A stretch of DNA of 22,012 bases from Candidatus Tectomicrobia bacterium (GTDB lineage: Bacteria > UBA8248), in contig JACPUR010000006.1 in the NCBI GenBank assembly GCA_016192135.1, positions 1 through 22,012 on the forward strand, given 5' to 3'. Below the pieces are notes generated by a model. That model did not search any database and was not told where the DNA came from. It saw nothing but the letters and a program-made list of their open reading frames with translations. Below, one piece after another: positions 1,182-12,666 of this stretch (position 1 is the stretch's first letter; each line of letters begins with the position of its first letter). A program made the position numbers and the translations under genes.

Positions 1182-1940
1182 TTACCAACTCGGGGGCTTT
1201 CGTATGCTTGTTCCCGCGACAGGATCATCAAACAAAGCTCTCCGGAAATGAGTCAGTCTCAAATGCCTATGGTTTGTGGCAACTGATTTTAAGGCGGGAG
1301 ACACGCCAAACTTGTTCGGGCTGGCGATGATTATGCGTTTCTTTCTCTCCTGGGCAGCCAACCGAATGGGTTCAGCCAGATCGGTATCATTAGAAATCAC
1401 AATAGCTGCATCAAAAAGATTCTTCCAAGCATCGTTCACAAGATGACATGCTAAATTCACATCCGAGCCTTTTTCCTCCATCTTTAAGATCTCGACTTTG
1501 ATTGCGCTTCTGACTGGATAAGAAATTCTTCGGGACCTCGCCCCAGTCGGATACCCCCCTACCGGAAGAATTTCGGGTCGTATTCCATCTATAGGATGCA
1601 AGCCAGACGGTAATATTACAGGAACTGGCGGAGAATTGATGGTTCTGTTAGCGGCTGGAAGGTTAATCACAGGGCGCCAGACATTTGATGCTAGAAAATT
1701 GCCAAAGTAGATTTCCAGTTCTGGAATAGTTGCCAAAGCATCAAGGTAAACTTGTTGTCGCTTGGGTTGGCCAGGGTCTTCGATACCCGAGACGCGAGCC
1801 GTATAATACTTAATCCTTTCGAGAACGTGATTTAAGGGAAGCAACTGCGTTACCAAACTTTTTAAATTCAACCATTTACATCTGCAATTCCGGACAGCGT
1901 AATAAAGATTGAAACCATCAATGTATGCATATGTCCGCAA
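1182..1940 (-). CDS. NYN-domain (PIN-like) putative ribonuclease, probably acquired
   Basis: This 252-residue protein belongs to the NYN/LabA-like branch of the PIN nuclease superfamily, metal-dependent enzymes usually thought to cut RNA. The acidic site residues are visible: D8 in YIDGFNLY, D160 in EKGSDVNLACHL, and D185 and D187 in ISNDTDLAEPI. Residues about 92-145 look like an insertion between the second strand region and the GSDVNLA block. The protein ends IRKPPSW. The start is a TTG at 1938-1940, chosen because AGAGGA (1948-1953) sits 7 bases upstream and no in-frame ATG exists nearby. The gene is AT-rich beside GC-rich neighbours and has its own consensus promoter and hairpin leader, so it looks like an independent transferable unit. 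The RNA target is unknown. Fold confidence is high, function confidence low. Confidence 0.85.
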   Translation of the reverse strand: MRTYAYIDGFNLYYAVRNCRCKWLNLKSLVTQLLPLNHVLERIKYYTARVSGIEDPGQPKRQQVYLDALATIPELEIYFGNFLASNVWRPVINLPAANRTINSPPVPVILPSGLHPIDGIRPEILPVGGYPTGARSRRISYPVRSAIKVEILKMEEKGSDVNLACHLVNDAWKNLFDAAIVISNDTDLAEPIRLAAQERKKRIIIASPNKFGVSPALKSVATNHRHLRLTHFRRALFDDPVAGTSIRKPPSW

Positions 1941-6975: not shown

Positions 6976-8106
6976 ATGACACGCCCCGAGGCCCCCTCCT
7001 CGACCGCCCCTTCCCCCTCTTGCTGCGCCCCCGGCGAGGCCCCCCCGGCGAAAGAGGCCGGGCCCCGCTCGCCCTCTTTCACGGCCCCCGCCCCCGAGGC
7101 GATCAAGGCCCCCGCCCCCGCCGCCCACACCCAGGCCGCCCAGGGCGCCTCCTGCCGCGGGCCCTCCGCCGAAAGCTGCCGCGCCCCCCAACCCTCCGAA
7201 GCACCCTCCGGTGCACCCTCCGAAGCCTCGGCGAAGGAGGGAGTCTTGGCGGAGGAGAGAGCCCCGGCGAAGGAGGCCGGGCCCCGCTCGCCCTCTTTCA
7301 CGGCCCCCGCCCCCGAGGCGATCAAGGCCGCCGTCCGCGCCGCCTACACCCAGGTCGCCCAGGGCGCCTCCTGCCGCGGCCCGGCCGCACCTCCCGCGGA
7401 TCGTGATTCTCCCAGTGGAGGGTTGTCCCTCCGTCCCTCCTGCCGCGGATCGGATGAGCCTCTCATGGGCACGGGTGCAAGCAACATCGCCCGCATCGGC
7501 TACGACCCCGCCCGCGCCGCCGCCCTCCCCGCCCCCGTCCTCGCCGCCAGCGCCGGCTGCGGCAACCCCCTCGCCCGCGCCCGCCCCCGGCCCGGCGAGA
7601 CCGTCCTCGACCTCGGCTCCGGCGGCGGGCTCGACTGCTTCCTCGCCGCCGGGGAGGTGGGGCCCACCGGCCGCGTCATCGGCCTCGACATGACCGGCGC
7701 CATGCTCGAGAAGGCCGAGGCCGCCCGCCGCGCCCTCGGCCTCGCCCACGTCGAGTTCCGCCGGGGCGAGATGGAAGCCATGCCCCTCGCGAGCGCGGCC
7801 GTCGACATCATCATCAGCAACTGCGCCGTCAACCTCTCCCCCGACAAGGCCGCCGTCTTCCGCGAGGCCTTCCGCGTCCTCAGGCCCGGCGGCCGCCTCG
7901 CCCTCTCCGACGTCCTCCGCACCGGCGAGGGAGGCGGGGGCTCCATGGAGGAATGGTGCGCCTGCATCGCCGGCGCCCTCACCCCCGGGGAGTTCCTCGA
8001 AGGCCTCCGCGCCGCCGGCTTCGAGCAGGCCCAAATCGCCGAGAGAAAACCCTATATCGCGGAAGGCCACGAGAGCATGGTCATCACCGCCGAGAAGCCG
8101 GGGTAG
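6976..8106 (+). CDS. arsM: Arsenite S-adenosylmethionine methyltransferase with duplicated N-terminal arm
   Basis: ArsM methylates As(III) from SAM, giving methylated and volatile arsenicals; it acts in the cytoplasm. The core matches the family: AGCGNPLA (193-200), SAM-binding VLDLGSGGGLDCFLAA (210-225), GRVIGLDMT (232-240), SNCAVNLSPDK (281-291) and WCACIAGAL (327-335). C283 and C330 correspond to two conserved arsenic-binding cysteines, and C133 in QGASCRGP probably to the third. At 376 residues it is about 100 longer than usual. The excess is N-terminal: residues 26-63 and 99-136 are near-identical copies (KEAGPRSPSFTAPAPEAIKA through GASCRGP). The second copy keeps the AAYTQVAQ helix; the first has drifted. 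Eleven cysteines are present. Start ATG 6976 follows AGGAG by 7 bases. No arsR is in the window, although operator-like sites precede the gene. The family call is firm. Confidence 0.92.
   Translation: MTRPEAPSSTAPSPSCCAPGEAPPAKEAGPRSPSFTAPAPEAIKAPAPAAHTQAAQGASCRGPSAESCRAPQPSEAPSGAPSEASAKEGVLAEERAPAKEAGPRSPSFTAPAPEAIKAAVRAAYTQVAQGASCRGPAAPPADRDSPSGGLSLRPSCRGSDEPLMGTGASNIARIGYDPARAAALPAPVLAASAGCGNPLARARPRPGETVLDLGSGGGLDCFLAAGEVGPTGRVIGLDMTGAMLEKAEAARRALGLAHVEFRRGEMEAMPLASAAVDIIISNCAVNLSPDKAAVFREAFRVLRPGGRLALSDVLRTGEGGGGSMEEWCACIAGALTPGEFLEGLRAAGFEQAQIAERKPYIAEGHESMVITAEKPG
7051..7164 (+). repeat. Direct repeat copy A within arsM
   Basis: This 114-base block recurs at 7270-7383 with about a dozen base differences. 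It encodes residues 26-63 of ArsM. The two copies are offset by exactly 219 bases (73 codons), so the reading frame is kept. Confidence 0.8.
7191..7226 (+). repeat. Triple tandem 12-mer inside arsM
   Basis: Three consecutive 12-base units: ACCCTCCGAAGC, ACCCTCCGGTGC and ACCCTCCGAAGC. They lie between the two long copies and run into a palindromic repeat similar to the one in the leader (6914-6941). They encode the linker PSEAPSGAPSEA. Confidence 0.65.
7270..7383 (+). repeat. Direct repeat copy B within arsM
   Basis: Second copy of the 114-base block, encoding residues 99-136 and ending at C133 in GASCRGP. It is the copy that joins the methyltransferase core and better keeps the family-like helix. 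Confidence 0.8.
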
Positions 8107-8423
8107 GGAGGAACCGGCACCCTCTCCTGGGGGAGGGGGTGAGGGGGGATTGTGGCAGGATTCAAAGAATCAATGGGACGGCCCGTGCGCACCCCGGCGG
8201 CAGTGAGGTGCGACTCGATCATGATCAACCTCAGAATCGCGTGTGGGTCGATCTCTTGAAATTCGGCCGACAACTCTAGAGCCACTCGGCTGTACTCCTC
8301 GAGAATCCCGGGGCTTGTGGCAATCTCGAGCCGGCCCTGCCGCCAGGCGTCCAGAATCTCGTAGGGGTAGCCGGCGAAAAAGATCCCGGAGATGAGGACG
8401 TTCGTGTCGAGAACGATCCTCAC
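8052..8423 (-). pseudogene. PIN-family toxin, C-terminally truncated
   Basis: The N-terminal half is a PIN_3-type toxin: MRIVLDTNVLISGIFF (D6), then YPYEILDAWRQGRLEIATSP and GILEEYSRVALELS with the second acidic residue. Such toxins are about 135-140 residues and end with a DPDDD-like block and an IVSGDKDLL-like block. Here homology stops near residue 78 (8190). The rest (RTGRPIDSLNPATIPPHPLP onward) comes from a repeat and the antisense 3' end of arsM. Two of the four metal-binding acidic residues are therefore missing and the protein should lack nuclease activity. The start is GTG 8421-8423, overlapping the antitoxin stop (GTGA), so translation is coupled. The frame is open to 8052, with 55 bases overlapping arsM tail to tail. 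Confidence 0.75.
8118..8141. terminator. Strong hairpin between convergent arsM and the PIN remnant
   Basis: CACCCTCTCC (8118-8127) and GGGAGGGGGTG (to 8141) form a 10-base stem with one G-U pair and a 4-base loop, 12 bases after the arsM stop. There is no T-run on either strand, so it is not a canonical intrinsic terminator. It resembles dispersed repeats made of CCCTC/GAGGG arms and may mark the junction where the PIN gene was truncated. Confidence 0.4.
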
Positions 8424-8683
8424 TTCCGGGCACGGACCCGCGATACAGCGGCAGCAACGTCACGCTTGCGCAACCCCGACCGCCGCGCCTGCGTTCTCGC
8501 CTGGGCAATCAGGCGATCGAAGTCTCCCATGGACGGCGGCGAAATCACCTTCAGGATAACGACGTCTCCTTCGCCCACGACGACGAACTGGACCCCTGGC
8601 ACAAGGCGAAGCTTCTCGCGTACTTCCTCTGGGATAACGACCTGCCCCTTCGAAGAGAGCCGTGTGGTGGCCAACGATGCCAT
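8420..8683 (-). CDS. AbrB/SpoVT-family antitoxin
   Basis: This 87-residue protein carries a swapped-hairpin AbrB/MazE DNA-binding domain at residues about 4-48: TTRLSSKGQVVIPEEVREKL followed by VPGVQFVVVGEGDVVILKVI. The C-terminal 35 residues are basic and helical and would normally bind and inhibit the PIN partner. It sits directly before the PIN gene with a 4-base overlap, the normal order for this toxin-antitoxin type. Start ATG 8681-8683 has an ideal AGGAGG (8689-8694) 5 bases upstream. It appears intact, with its own promoter and a palindromic operator, although its toxin partner is truncated. It may survive as a stand-alone repressor. The family is clear; its present role is inferred. 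Confidence 0.88.
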   Translation of the reverse strand: MASLATTRLSSKGQVVIPEEVREKLRLVPGVQFVVVGEGDVVILKVISPPSMGDFDRLIAQARTQARRSGLRKRDVAAAVSRVRARK

Positions 8684-8895: not shown

Positions 8896-11800
8896 ATGGC
8901 TACCCCGCCGCCGATCATCGAGGAACTGGTCGAGCGCTTCGGCCAGAATATCGAGGCCTACAAGAGCCCGGCCTACAATGAAACCCGGCTACGCCGGGAA
9001 TTCATTGATCCGTTTTGGGAAGCGTTAGGATGGGATATCGCTAACAAGGCGGGCTTCGCGCTCCCCTACCAGGACGTGCTCCACGAGGACTCCCTGAAGA
9101 TGGGAGGCACCACCAAGGCCCCGGACTATTCCTTCCGCGTCGGGGGTCAGCGCAAGTTCTTCCTGGAGACGAAGAAGCCCGCCGTCAACGTCCAGGACGA
9201 CCCTGAACCCGCCTACCAACTCCGCCGCTACGCCTGGACGGCCAAACTCCCCCTTTCGGTCCTGACGGACTTCGAGCACACAGCGGTCTACGATGGACGC
9301 GTCCGCCCCAAGCCCGGCGACAGGGCCTCCGCCGCCCGCGTCAACCTCATCCCCTACACCGAGTACCTGGACAAGTGGGATGAAATCGCCTCGGTCTTCT
9401 CCAAGGAAGCGGTCTACAAAGGCTCCTTCGATAAGTACGCGAGTGCAAAGAAAGCCAAGCGCGGCACCGCCGAGGTGGACGCCGAGTTCCTCAAGGAACT
9501 GGACCGCTGGCGGGAGGAGCTGGCAAAGAACCTCGCTCTGCGGAACCCGCTGAACCGAAGGGACCTGAACTACGCCGTCCAGATGACGATCGACCGCATC
9601 GTCTTCCTCCGCATGTGCGAGGACCGGGGCATCGAGCCGGAGAGGCAGCTTCAAGCCCTCCTGAACGGCCCGAACATCTATCCCCGGCTCGTCAAAATCT
9701 TTGAGGCGGCGGACGAGAAGTACAATTCCGGCCTCTTCCATTTCAGGGACGAGACGGGGCAATCCAGCACTCCCGACCAACTGACCCTCTCCCTCAAGGT
9801 CGACGACAAGACCCTCAAGGACATCCTCTCCAAGCTCTACTACCCGGAGAGCCCCTACGAGTTCCGGGTCCTCCCCCTGGAGATATTGGGCACCGCCTAC
9901 GAGCGCTTCCTCGGGAAGGTCATCACCCTCGGCCCGGGCGGGCGGCGGGCCAGGGTCGAGGAGAAGCCCGAGGTCCGGAAGGCGGGCGGCGTCTACTACA
10001 CCCCGCAATACATCGTGGACTACATCGTCAGGAACACCGTGGGCAGGATGATCGAGGGCAAGTCTCCGGAGGAGATCAGTTCCCTCAAGGTTCTCGACCC
10101 CGCCTGCGGCTCGGGCTCCTTCCTCCTGGGGGCCTACCGCTATCTGCTCGACCACCACCTGGATTGGTACACGACAAGAATGAAGGCGGATGGCAAGGTT
10201 CCCGTAGGGGCGGGGCGGACAATGTCCGCCCACCATGCCCGCCCGGAGGAGGGGCGACCACAGGGGGTCGCCCCTACAGGGGTGGCCGCCCGCGCCGCCC
10301 GGGGCAGGAAGGGCCGCCAGGCCCCGCCCATCTACCAGGGCAGGGGCGGCTTGTGGTTCCTCACCATCGCCGAGAAGAAGCGCATCCTCCTCGACAACAT
10401 CTTCGGGGTGGACATCGACCCCCAGGCGGTGGAGGTCACCAAGCTCAGCCTCCTGCTCAAGGTGCTGGAGCACGAGAGCGAGGAGACCTTGCAGAGCGCC
10501 TTTCTTTTCCACCGTGAGCGTGCCCTGCCGGACCTGGGGGGCAACATCAAGTGCGGTAACGCCCTGATCGGGACGGATTTCAACGCGAACAAGCAAGGAA
10601 CGCTGTTCGATGAGGACGAGCAGTACCGCATCAACGCCTTCGACTGGGGCCAGGGGTTCCCCGCGATCATGAAGCGCGGCGGGTTCGACTGCGTGATCGG
10701 GAATCCGCCGTATGTTAGGCAAGAATTGATTGGGAATTACAAGGCATATTTTCAAAGAAAGTATAAAGTCTACAACGGAACCGCTGATCTTTACTCATAC
10801 TTTATAGAACGAGGAGTTTCATTGCTTCGGCAAAACGGCCTTTTCAGTTTTATCGTCGCCAACAAATGGATGCGAGCCATCTATGGGAAACCTCTCCGGG
10901 AGTGGATGAGTCAACAATGTCTTCAGGAGGTAGTTGATTTTGGCGATTTACCAGTTTTTCAAAAGGCTACAACATATCCATGCATCCTTCGGATAGCTAA
11001 GAGTACGCCGACGAATGAATTTGCTGTTGTTCGTGTCGGCACTTTAAGTTTTGATAGGTTGGATCTGTACTGTCAGAGGCAATCTTATGTGGTTTCGAAG
11101 TCTGCTCTGAGCAATAACAATGGATGGGATCTTGCGACAGAAAAGGCTTCTCAATTATTGAAAAAGCTTGAGGCGAGCGGTGTTGCTCTAGGTAGGTATG
11201 TTCATGGAAAAATCTACCGTGGGATATTGACGGGAGCAAATGAGGCATTCGTTATTGATCGGGAGATTCGGACCAAGCTAATTGAGAGCGATCCCAGTTG
11301 CACGGATTTAATAAGGCCATTCGTGACAGGACGTGAGGTTAAAAGGTATCAGCCTGTTATGAGTGAGCGTTTTTTGATTTTCGCAAGGCGTGGTGTGAAT
11401 ATCAGCAAATATCCTGCAATTGAAAATTATTTAACGGGATTCAAGAAAAAACTGTTACCAAAACCTAAGAATTGGAAGGGGAAAAAATGGCCTGGGCGAA
11501 AGCCAGGTTCATATGAATGGTACGAAATTCAGGATACGGTAGATTATTATCGTGAATTCGAGAAACCTAAGATTGTTGTGCCTTCAATCGTACAGAGGGC
11601 TTCCTGTTCTTTCGATGAGGGGAATGTGCTTTCGAATGACAAAACCTCAATTATTGTTACTGACCAAAAATATTTGCTTGGTTTGTTGAACTCGAAGCTG
11701 TTGGATTTTTTCATTCACTCGATTGCCTCAACAAAGCAAGGCGGATATTTTGAGTATAAACCTATGTACCTCGAACGCCTCCCCATCCGCGCCATCGATT

Positions 11801-12018
11801 TCTCCAATCCCGCCGACGTGGAGAAGCACGGCCGCATGGTCTCCCTCGTGGAATCCATGCTGGACCTGCACAAGCGCCTCCAGGCGGCCCGGACGCCGCA
11901 GGAGAAGGAAATGCTCCAGCGGCAGATCGACGGCACGGACGGGCAGATCGACGCGCTGGTGTATGAGCTCTACGGCCTGACCGGGGAAGAAATCAAAATC
12001 GTCGAGGAAGGTCCGTAG
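8896..12018 (+). CDS. Type IIG restriction-modification enzyme (nuclease, adenine methylase and TaqI-like specificity domain in one chain)
   Basis: A single 1040-residue protein that should both methylate and cut DNA. The N-terminal PD-(D/E)xK nuclease has D77 (APDYSF) and E91-x-K93 (FLETKKP). A helical connector follows (about 170-330). The N6-adenine methylase has motif X GGVYYTPQYIVDYIVRN (about 365), SAM motif I DPACGSGSF (401-409), GVDIDPQAVEVTKLSLLLK and catalytic NPPY (603-606). The TaqI-like specificity part follows, with YRGILTGANEAFVI, IRPFVTGREVKRY and LLNSKLLDFF, ending with YLERLPI. Residues about 437-460 (VGAGRT to VAPTG) come from an inserted REP pair. From about 10710 to 11765 the DNA is much AT-richer than both flanks, suggesting that the recognition segment was replaced. 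The stop TAG lies inside another REP. No separate methylase or nuclease gene is nearby, as expected for type IIG. Confidence 0.92.
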   Translation: MATPPPIIEELVERFGQNIEAYKSPAYNETRLRREFIDPFWEALGWDIANKAGFALPYQDVLHEDSLKMGGTTKAPDYSFRVGGQRKFFLETKKPAVNVQDDPEPAYQLRRYAWTAKLPLSVLTDFEHTAVYDGRVRPKPGDRASAARVNLIPYTEYLDKWDEIASVFSKEAVYKGSFDKYASAKKAKRGTAEVDAEFLKELDRWREELAKNLALRNPLNRRDLNYAVQMTIDRIVFLRMCEDRGIEPERQLQALLNGPNIYPRLVKIFEAADEKYNSGLFHFRDETGQSSTPDQLTLSLKVDDKTLKDILSKLYYPESPYEFRVLPLEILGTAYERFLGKVITLGPGGRRARVEEKPEVRKAGGVYYTPQYIVDYIVRNTVGRMIEGKSPEEISSLKVLDPACGSGSFLLGAYRYLLDHHLDWYTTRMKADGKVPVGAGRTMSAHHARPEEGRPQGVAPTGVAARAARGRKGRQAPPIYQGRGGLWFLTIAEKKRILLDNIFGVDIDPQAVEVTKLSLLLKVLEHESEETLQSAFLFHRERALPDLGGNIKCGNALIGTDFNANKQGTLFDEDEQYRINAFDWGQGFPAIMKRGGFDCVIGNPPYVRQELIGNYKAYFQRKYKVYNGTADLYSYFIERGVSLLRQNGLFSFIVANKWMRAIYGKPLREWMSQQCLQEVVDFGDLPVFQKATTYPCILRIAKSTPTNEFAVVRVGTLSFDRLDLYCQRQSYVVSKSALSNNNGWDLATEKASQLLKKLEASGVALGRYVHGKIYRGILTGANEAFVIDREIRTKLIESDPSCTDLIRPFVTGREVKRYQPVMSERFLIFARRGVNISKYPAIENYLTGFKKKLLPKPKNWKGKKWPGRKPGSYEWYEIQDTVDYYREFEKPKIVVPSIVQRASCSFDEGNVLSNDKTSIIVTDQKYLLGLLNSKLLDFFIHSIASTKQGGYFEYKPMYLERLPIRAIDFSNPADVEKHGRMVSLVESMLDLHKRLQAARTPQEKEMLQRQIDGTDGQIDALVYELYGLTGEEIKIVEEGP
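10204..10277. repeat. Inverted pair of REP elements inside the restriction enzyme gene
   Basis: The left unit (10204-10231) begins GTAG and contains GGGCGGAC-AAT-GTCCGCCC. The right unit (10251-10277) is in reverse orientation and reads GTAG, GGGCGACC, CCCTGT, GGTCGCCC on the minus strand. Both have the architecture of the cluster at 12.0-12.6 kb. The insertion is in frame and falls in a surface loop between motif I and the KRILLDNIFGVDIDPQ block. Confidence 0.8.
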
Positions 12019-12109
12019 GGGCGGGCCCCCGCGCCCGCCCTGGCCCACAAACCCGCCCCCGTCCACGCGCCCGTCCGATGGAAGGGCGGCCACGGGGGGC
12101 CGCCCCTGC
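12015..12109. repeat. Inverted REP pair at the 3' end of the restriction enzyme gene
   Basis: The plus-oriented unit is at 12015-12040 (GTAG, GGGCGGGC, CCCCGC, GCCCGCCC). The minus-oriented unit is at 12083-12109 (arms GGGCGGCC and GGCCGCCC). The stop codon of the upstream gene (TAG, 12016-12018) is the TAG of the first unit. No gene lies between 12019 and 12136. Confidence 0.8.
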
Positions 12110-12136
12110 GGGTGACCGCATCATGAAACCATCCCC

Positions 12137-12508
12137 ATGAAATTCAACCCCGACGCCCACCGCCGCCGGTCGGTGCGGCTGAAGGGATGGGACTACGCCT
12201 CGCGCGGGGCGTATTTCGTCACGGTGTGCGTGCAAGGGCGGGAATGCCGGTTGGGGGAGATCGCGGGCGGAAAGATGCGGCTGAGCGAGGCCGGCGCGAT
12301 GGTCCAAAGGACGTGGGAGGAATTGCCTTCCAAATATCCGGGGATGGAGATCGATGCATTCGTCGTGATGCCGAACCACATTCACGGGATCATCGTTTTG
12401 ATCGATCCCGTAGGGGCAGGCCCCCGTGCCTGCCCCGGCCCCCGTGCCCGCCCCGGCATACACGCCCGCCCGGAACAGGGGCCCGGCCACACGCACCCGC
12501 CACGATGA
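12137..12508 (+). pseudogene. REP-associated tyrosine (Y1/IS200-like) transposase, 3'-truncated
   Basis: The first 91 residues match RAYT/Y1 transposases: RRRSVRLKGWDYASRGAYFV near the N-terminus, then VCVQGRECRLGEIAGGKMRL, LPSKYPGMEIDAFVVMPNHI and HGIIVLIDP. The HIH histidine pair of the HUH-type active site (residues 86-88, in MPNHIHGII) is present. After VLIDP the frame enters REP sequence (VGAGPRACPGPRARPG) and stops at residue 123. Full-length relatives are about 200-240 residues and carry the catalytic Tyr helix in the missing part, so this copy cannot be active. The start is ATG 12137, which gives the family N-terminus. RAYTs domesticate and spread REP palindromes. This one is surrounded by, and broken by, such palindromes, so it or an intact relative elsewhere probably produced them. 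Confidence 0.85.
12410..12454 (+). repeat. REP unit plus half unit inside the transposase gene
   Basis: 12410-12436 reads GTAG, GGGCAGGC, CCCCGT, GCCTGCCC. Compared with its neighbours both arms changed together (CGG to CAG on the left, CCG to CTG on the right), which keeps the stem paired. 12437-12454 is a half unit lacking the left arm. This insertion replaces the normal 3' part of the transposase. Confidence 0.8.
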
Positions 12509-12509
12509 A

Positions 12510-12584
12510 GGGGCGGGCCCCCGCGCCCGCCCCGGCCGGGATGGATGGATGGAATCCGTAGGGGCGGGCCCCCGTGCCCGCCCC
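12510..12584 (+). repeat. Two plus-oriented REP units
   Basis: Units at 12510-12533 and 12558-12584 have arms GGGCGGGC and GCCCGCCC. The second has the full 5' GTAG; in the first this is AAGG. They lie just after the truncated transposase frame. Confidence 0.75.
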
Positions 12585-12609
12585 GTTCCTCGTGCGTATC
12601 CCGAAAAAA

Positions 12610-12636
12610 GGGGCGGCCACGGGGGGCCGCCCCTAC
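12610..12636 (-). repeat. Minus-oriented REP unit
   Basis: Read on the minus strand: GTAG, GGGCGGCC, CCCCGT, GGCCGCCC. It closes the cluster and faces the plus units, giving a BIME-like arrangement. Both arms again differ together from the plus units (GGGC to GGCC with GCCC to GGCC). Confidence 0.75.
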
Positions 12637-12666
12637 GGGTTGCGCGTTTGCATGTCCCCTCCCCCC

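Follow-up and report, generated by a model that had tools for sequence, protein, structure and literature searches.

The type IIG gene and its surroundings

The window, that is, the whole stretch of 22,012 nucleotides that was analyzed, contains a gene for a type IIG restriction endonuclease-methyltransferase, called the query in the following (Table 1). For brevity, the nuclease, the linker, the SAM-binding half of the methyltransferase, and the C-terminal helical hairpin are denoted the chassis, and residues ~607-958, which comprise the second half of the methyltransferase and the TaqI_C-type target recognition domain, are denoted the cassette. The best match of the query protein was PADLOC PDLC03604 (REase_MTase_IIG), with an E value of 1.4e-217 over residues 8-1035. 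Pfam matches were obtained for HSDR_N at the N terminus (residues 63-135), for Eco57I and N6_Mtase in the middle of the protein, and for TaqI_C at residues 808-964 (E 1.7e-17). The translation contains a PD-(D/E)XK motif in the nuclease domain (P76-D77 ... E91-T-K93, encoded at 9121-9174), and the SAM motif I of the methyltransferase is DPACGSGSF (residues 401-409). A nuclease, a gamma-class N6-adenine methyltransferase, and a recognition domain are combined in one polypeptide, which defines the query as a type IIG enzyme. The enzyme would be expected to be active.

Table 1. Parts of the query gene, with positions in the window and the basis of each assignment
Feature	Position	Strand	Basis
Type IIG restriction endonuclease-methyltransferase, single open frame, 1040 aa	8896..12018	+	PADLOC REase_MTase_IIG PDLC03604; Pfam Eco57I, TaqI_C, N6_Mtase, HSDR_N
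Chassis, N-terminal nuclease domain	8896..9465	+	HSDR_N match residues 63-135; structure model; motif read from the translation
Chassis, helical linker followed by the first methyltransferase half	9466..10695	+	GC3 0.87-0.92; strands of the model up to beta-4 (597-602)
REP-like palindromic repeat pair, in-frame insert in a disordered loop	10201..10282	+	Repeat family D7, inverted repeats; model
Putative 5′ exchange hinge, GGG AAT CCG CCG TAT = GNPPY (motif IV, residues 602-606)	10699..10713	+	GC3 edge; L087/L089 break; synonymous conservation
Cassette part M (residues 607-710), remaining half of the methyltransferase fold with strands beta-5 to beta-7	10714..11025	+	GC3 0.42; model
Cassette part T (residues 711-958), target recognition domain of the TaqI_C type	11026..11769	+	TaqI_C; CamA-like fold; GC3 0.41
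Putative 3′ exchange zone (YLERLPI) plus helical hairpin of the C terminus; composition as in the chassis	11770..12018	+	GC3 edge 958; helices 972-997 and 1001-1025

Two further loci of the window were annotated. A MazE-like antitoxin and a PIN-domain toxin are encoded directly upstream of the enzyme in divergent orientation (8052-8683, minus strand). A gene for an NYN-domain protein (1182-1940, minus strand) matched HEC-09, a candidate defence family of PADLOC (E 1.2e-40), and its GC3 of 0.43 was the lowest of all genes sampled in the genome.

A sharply bounded block of low GC3

The GC content of the query dropped from about 0.61-0.64 to about 0.38-0.47 in the block and then returned to 0.68. 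At third codon positions, GC3 was 0.87-0.92 until residue ~600; it amounted to 0.39 for residues 606-958 (about 0.41) and to 0.88 thereafter. In steps of 40 codons, the values ranged from 0.75 to 1.00 for residues 1-600, from 0.28 to 0.53 for residues 601-960, and from 0.82 to 0.93 in the remainder. The first-pass annotation had reported a GC drop right after the NPPY codons, a recovery at YLERLPI, and a GC-rich nuclease, SAM site, and C-terminal helix. Sliding GC and GC3 profiles bore this out, with coordinates that agreed within a few bases.

A maximum-likelihood model with two edges placed the low-GC3 block at residues 606-958 (approximately 10711-11769), and its log-likelihood gain of 122 compares with at most 11.4 in 20 shuffles. 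The 95% range of the 5′ edge at codon 606 was 601-607 (10696-10716), and that of the 3′ edge at codon 958 was 956-963 (11761-11784). For comparison, 96 long open frames were picked mechanically from about 0.3 Mb of the same genome. No stretch in these frames had a lower GC3 than the 350-codon stretch of the query (0.41), and the internal GC3 range of the query gene was the largest (0.50, with 0.35 for the runner-up). The GC3 of host core genes in the window (ruvABC, yebC, and polA) was 0.97-0.98, that of the query chassis 0.88, and that of the cassette 0.41.

The edges in the predicted structure

A structure model was built from the window and locus sequences alone (pLDDT 85, pTM 0.72). Along the chain, strand beta-4 (597-602) is followed by the NPPY loop (603-606), strands beta-5 to beta-7 (644-713), the recognition domain (~722-959), and the helical hairpin (972-1025). 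In the model, the 5′ edge cuts the methyltransferase fold right behind the catalytic loop, and at the 3′ edge the recognition domain gives way to the C-terminal hairpin. The earlier claim that the edges coincide with functional boundaries was thus correct insofar as the 5′ edge falls at a functional motif. However, this edge lies just after beta-4 and the NPPY loop, so it is inside the methyltransferase fold and not at a domain boundary. The moved unit consists of half of the catalytic fold together with the recognition domain.

Comparison with solved folds, for which Foldseek was also used, gave the highest Z score for CamA (31.4 over 541 residues), followed by MmeI (25.4), M.BseCI (24.9), BrxX (23.7), M.TaqI (22.3), and DrdV (20.6). 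The overall fold resembles solved type IIG/IIL enzymes, i.e., MmeI (648 residues) and DrdV (712 residues, rmsd 9.9), the latter being aligned to residues 4-1026 of the model. Like the query, BpuSI (3s1s), MmeI (5hr4), and DrdV (7lo5) combine nuclease, methyltransferase, and recognition domain in a single chain, but their identity to the query is just 12-15%. CamA of Clostridioides difficile (7lni, 7rfk), M.TaqI, M.BseCI, and PglX/BrxX of BREX share the fold of the methyltransferase and the recognition domain, but lack the N-terminal nuclease of the query. The sequence match in this second group covers query residues 594-981, and as the identity is 25%, the specificities of these enzymes are not transferable to the query.

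Chassis and cassette have different relatives

Relatives were found at 63 loci in public genomes and at several loci in further genomes, and the full-length ones were compared segment by segment. When the chassis was 59-67% identical to that of the query, segment 601-960 was related in some genes (60-70% in 601-710), whereas in others it had next to no relationship (23-32%), and a chassis of 60-70% identity could be joined to a cassette of just 17-32% identity. Conversely, chassis with only 21-35% identity could be joined to related cassettes, with 42-65% in 601-710 and 34-52% in 711-960. For example, the identities to the query in chassis and 601-710, respectively, were 33% and 65% for L044, and 21% and 58% for L052.

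The same picture emerged from separate phylogenies, which were quick trees with long branches. In the chassis tree, a branch (98*) separates 12 distant chassis from all others, whereas the same division needs 8 changes in the cassette tree, at least 5 of which are forced by starred branches. With the cassette data, AU tests rejected the chassis clade (p 3e-29) as well as L022+L027 (5e-6), L026+L030 (0.0015), and L026+L030+L031 (0.0015), while L048+L053 was not rejected (0.06). The cassette data also rejected the query together with L023 and L025 (7.7e-5), but this trio itself is no supported clade of the chassis tree. The grouping of the query with L085, its nearest cassette relative, was not rejected by the chassis data (p 0.127). 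One common tree for the two parts, which the first-pass annotation had named as a refuting result, is rejected at the family level. As to the swap of the recognition domain proposed for this gene, exchange was found in the family and the edges of the query lie at points that recur in it, but the tree conflict of the query itself is not significant, and for the query separate histories are supported by composition. The proposed swap is thus partly supported, and across the family residues ~607-960 behave as a cassette that is separate from the nuclease/SAM chassis.

The junctions lie at conserved sequence and are recurrent, on the 5′ side at motif IV and on the 3′ side at LPI. A 5′ GC3 edge at motif IV was also found in L087 (606, range 603-607), L089 (609, range 601-610), and L090 (range 598-614), while that of L041 was at 597. 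In L026, L030, and L031, an alternative 5′ edge is located at ~710, behind the methyltransferase fold, which indicates that movement of just the recognition domain occurs as well. The 3′ edges were near 956-970 in most of these genes.

The most clear-cut example comes from genome G057, which contains three type IIG paralogues (L087, L088, and L089), two of which have nearly identical chassis and unrelated cassettes. At the DNA level, the chassis of L087 and L089 are 98, 94, 92, 92, and 89% identical in successive parts of 1-427, and 92, 92, and 82% identical over 490-600, with just 40% in the variable loop 427-490. The identity is 33-61% over 601-960, 51% over 961-985, and 84% after 985. Both genes have GGG AAT CCG CCG TAT, and similarity is lost immediately after the last base of the NPPY codons. 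These fifteen bases are also present in the query, at its own GC3 edge.

Codon conservation at motif IV

The 15-mer of motif IV, GGGAATCCGCCGTAT, was exactly present in 10 of 28 chassis genes, compared with an expectation of 0.19. Codon conservation was measured relative to the usage of each gene. Among 117 nearly invariant positions, it was strongest at P604, where CCG was found in 29 of 36 genes (10.6 expected, z 7.1), and Y606 (TAT in 31 of 35, 19.3 expected) and G602 (GGG in 17 of 36, 7.5 expected) were both in the top six. GNPPY ranked first of 48 conserved windows for synonymous excess (0.218, mean 0.108, sd 0.042), while every conserved window in the IIG genes has some such excess.

Two other methyltransferases were used as controls. 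In PrmC, which has an unswapped NPPY, there was no CCG excess at the first proline (12 of 30, 9.7 expected). HsdM, with NPPF, had a weaker CCG excess (17 of 26, 8.8 expected), and thus the CCG bias is not confined to swapping enzymes. TIGR03533 and PF05175 were considered as extra controls but were left out, as they mostly retrieved PrmC again. A codon bias of another kind was observed in the PrmC genes (L121-L150), where the second proline was CCC in 19 of 30 cases (8.5 expected) and tyrosine was TAT in 22 of 30 (14.5 expected).

The synonymous conservation suggests that the NPPY DNA may serve as a recombination hinge. The pattern fits a hinge but is no proof, and shared ancestry or a codon constraint in DNA methyltransferases could contribute. 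A more far-reaching version, in which the 15 bases GGGAATCCGCCGTAT are kept across phyla as a hinge for the exchange of unrelated cassettes between bacterial and archaeal type IIG genes, is a tentative idea that we regard as rather unlikely.

Origin of the AT-rich cassette

The first-pass annotation had derived a swap from the GC drop and had named a drop in all homologues as the observation that would speak against it. In direction, this is largely what was found. GC3 was lower in 711-960 than in the chassis in 37 of 38 homologues, which are not independent of each other, with a mean difference of -0.21; for the C-terminal part, the difference was merely -0.04. Consequently, the drop by itself is no proof of a one-off event in the query. 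The difference in 711-960 depended on the GC3 of the chassis and was -0.30 for values above 0.65, -0.18 in the middle range, and -0.07 for values below 0.45. Low GC3 of the cassette is therefore a family property, and the query is an extreme case. The drop of the query beyond the family trend lay mainly in 601-710 (residual z -2.1, and -1.3 in 711-960). Fast-evolving columns were too weak as the sole cause of the low GC3, as variable columns were 0.034 lower than conserved columns within the chassis and did not differ within 711-960. A simple pool of donors with intermediate GC was also a poor fit, as the segment of AT-rich genes was not GC-richer than their chassis. A literature search on low GC in recognition domains found no paper, which is weak evidence of absence.

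The reading that we favour, with a probability of about 0.83, is that the query is a mosaic type IIG enzyme in which a conserved chassis has been joined by recombination to a foreign, AT-richer specificity cassette. It was weighed against the view that the recognition segment is intrinsically AT-richer because of weaker selection and a general AT-biased mutation pressure, without any import. The near-universal drop fits this view, and as it includes AT-rich genes, in which import from donors of intermediate GC should raise GC3, part of the drop may indeed be intrinsic. However, edges that are sharp to a few codons and that, on the 5′ side, fall at either of two places depending on the gene (606 or ~710) are not what it would lead one to expect, the effect of variable columns is too small, the chassis and cassette trees are in conflict, and paralogues within one genome carry swapped cassettes. 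We thus regard a purely intrinsic cause as improbable; the sharp edges and the tree conflict argue for import, to which an intrinsic AT tendency may be added. A chimera produced by assembly or binning is far less credible. The window consists of a single short contig (22,012 bases) of an assembly of 41 contigs, but the frame is open across both edges, L085, L024, and others are collinear with the query from end to end, and one confidently predicted fold spans both parts.

As a timing variant that is compatible with the mosaic, the swap could have taken place in another host before the gene reached this genome, with subsequent transfer of the complete mosaic gene. The chassis GC3 is below that of the host core genes, 17 genomes from the same genus or family yielded no full-length match to the gene but just short or weak ones, and a toxin-antitoxin pair and remnants of REP/RAYT elements adjoin the gene. 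The first two of these observations indicate that the whole gene was probably acquired, and the swap may be older than its arrival. On the other hand, a direct swap in this lineage into a previously acquired chassis may have taken place, and we consider the odds of the earlier-host variant to be even. The earlier description of the swap as recent, and as an event in this genome, goes further than the results: the composition of the chassis is not native, and the gene was not found in the 17 genomes searched. A search for a donor of the cassette yielded none that is close at the DNA level. The best identity was 41% in plasmids, 30% in phages (for the match with the best score), and 61% in 386 genomes, the latter being the best protein identity of the cassette, and IMG/VR viral contigs gave no match. 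Overall, the feature described in the first-pass annotation is real and its reading was largely right, but the query is one case of a repeated, family-wide process and not a singular recent event.

Mechanism and precedents

In the mosaic, exchange would proceed by homologous or short-homology recombination, with the DNA of motif IV as a candidate 5′ hinge and the LPI region as a candidate 3′ hinge. The nuclease and the cofactor-binding parts would be retained, and the exchange would probably alter the recognized sequence.

For type III methyltransferases of Helicobacter pylori, recognition domains are reported to move between non-orthologous enzymes at DNA of weak similarity that encodes conserved motifs of the methyltransferase (summarized in PMC3983042). 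As in the query family, the recognition part moves at DNA for conserved methyltransferase motifs and across species limits. The H. pylori enzymes, however, are of another type and have another motif order, whereas in the query family, a gamma-class type IIG fusion, the putative hinge is motif IV (NPPY), half of the catalytic fold travels along, and exchange extends across phyla and even between domains of life. Exchange and movement of recognition domains are also established for type I HsdS (PMC3874165, PMC3077401). As here, recognition parts recombine at conserved flanks, and the specificity of HsdS changes; but there the recombining protein is the S subunit, a chain of its own that has repeats or conserved helices, whereas in the query family the cut lies in the catalytic domain of a single chain. 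Thus, the mechanism is known in kind, and what differs is the type of enzyme, the location of the putative hinge within motif IV, the transfer of half of the catalytic fold, and the span of bacteria and archaea.

In single-chain restriction enzymes of bacteria and archaea, a specificity module is thus exchanged at two repeated points, one of which lies in an active-site motif. For engineers, the exchange points mark where chimeras are naturally tolerated. In addition, it becomes testable whether conservation of a catalytic motif at the DNA level maintains an exchange hinge between distant species.

Repeats in and around the gene

The REP-like pair within the gene lies between motif I and the next strand, in a model loop (436-473) with a pLDDT below 50 that is variable in homologues. 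Its repeat family has 99 matches genome-wide, compared with 2 for the reversed pattern. The stop codon of the enzyme, TAG (12016-12018), is located within the first arm (GTAGGGGCGGGCCCC) of a second REP pair at 12005-12115. It is followed at 12137-12508 by a truncated REP-associated tyrosine transposase (NF047646, E 8.2e-6, residues 21-88), which is interrupted by REP copies at 12400-12640. The loops of the G057 paralogues contain peptides (GGTDIPVC and HHRDTESTEGRG) that resemble translated interspersed repeats.
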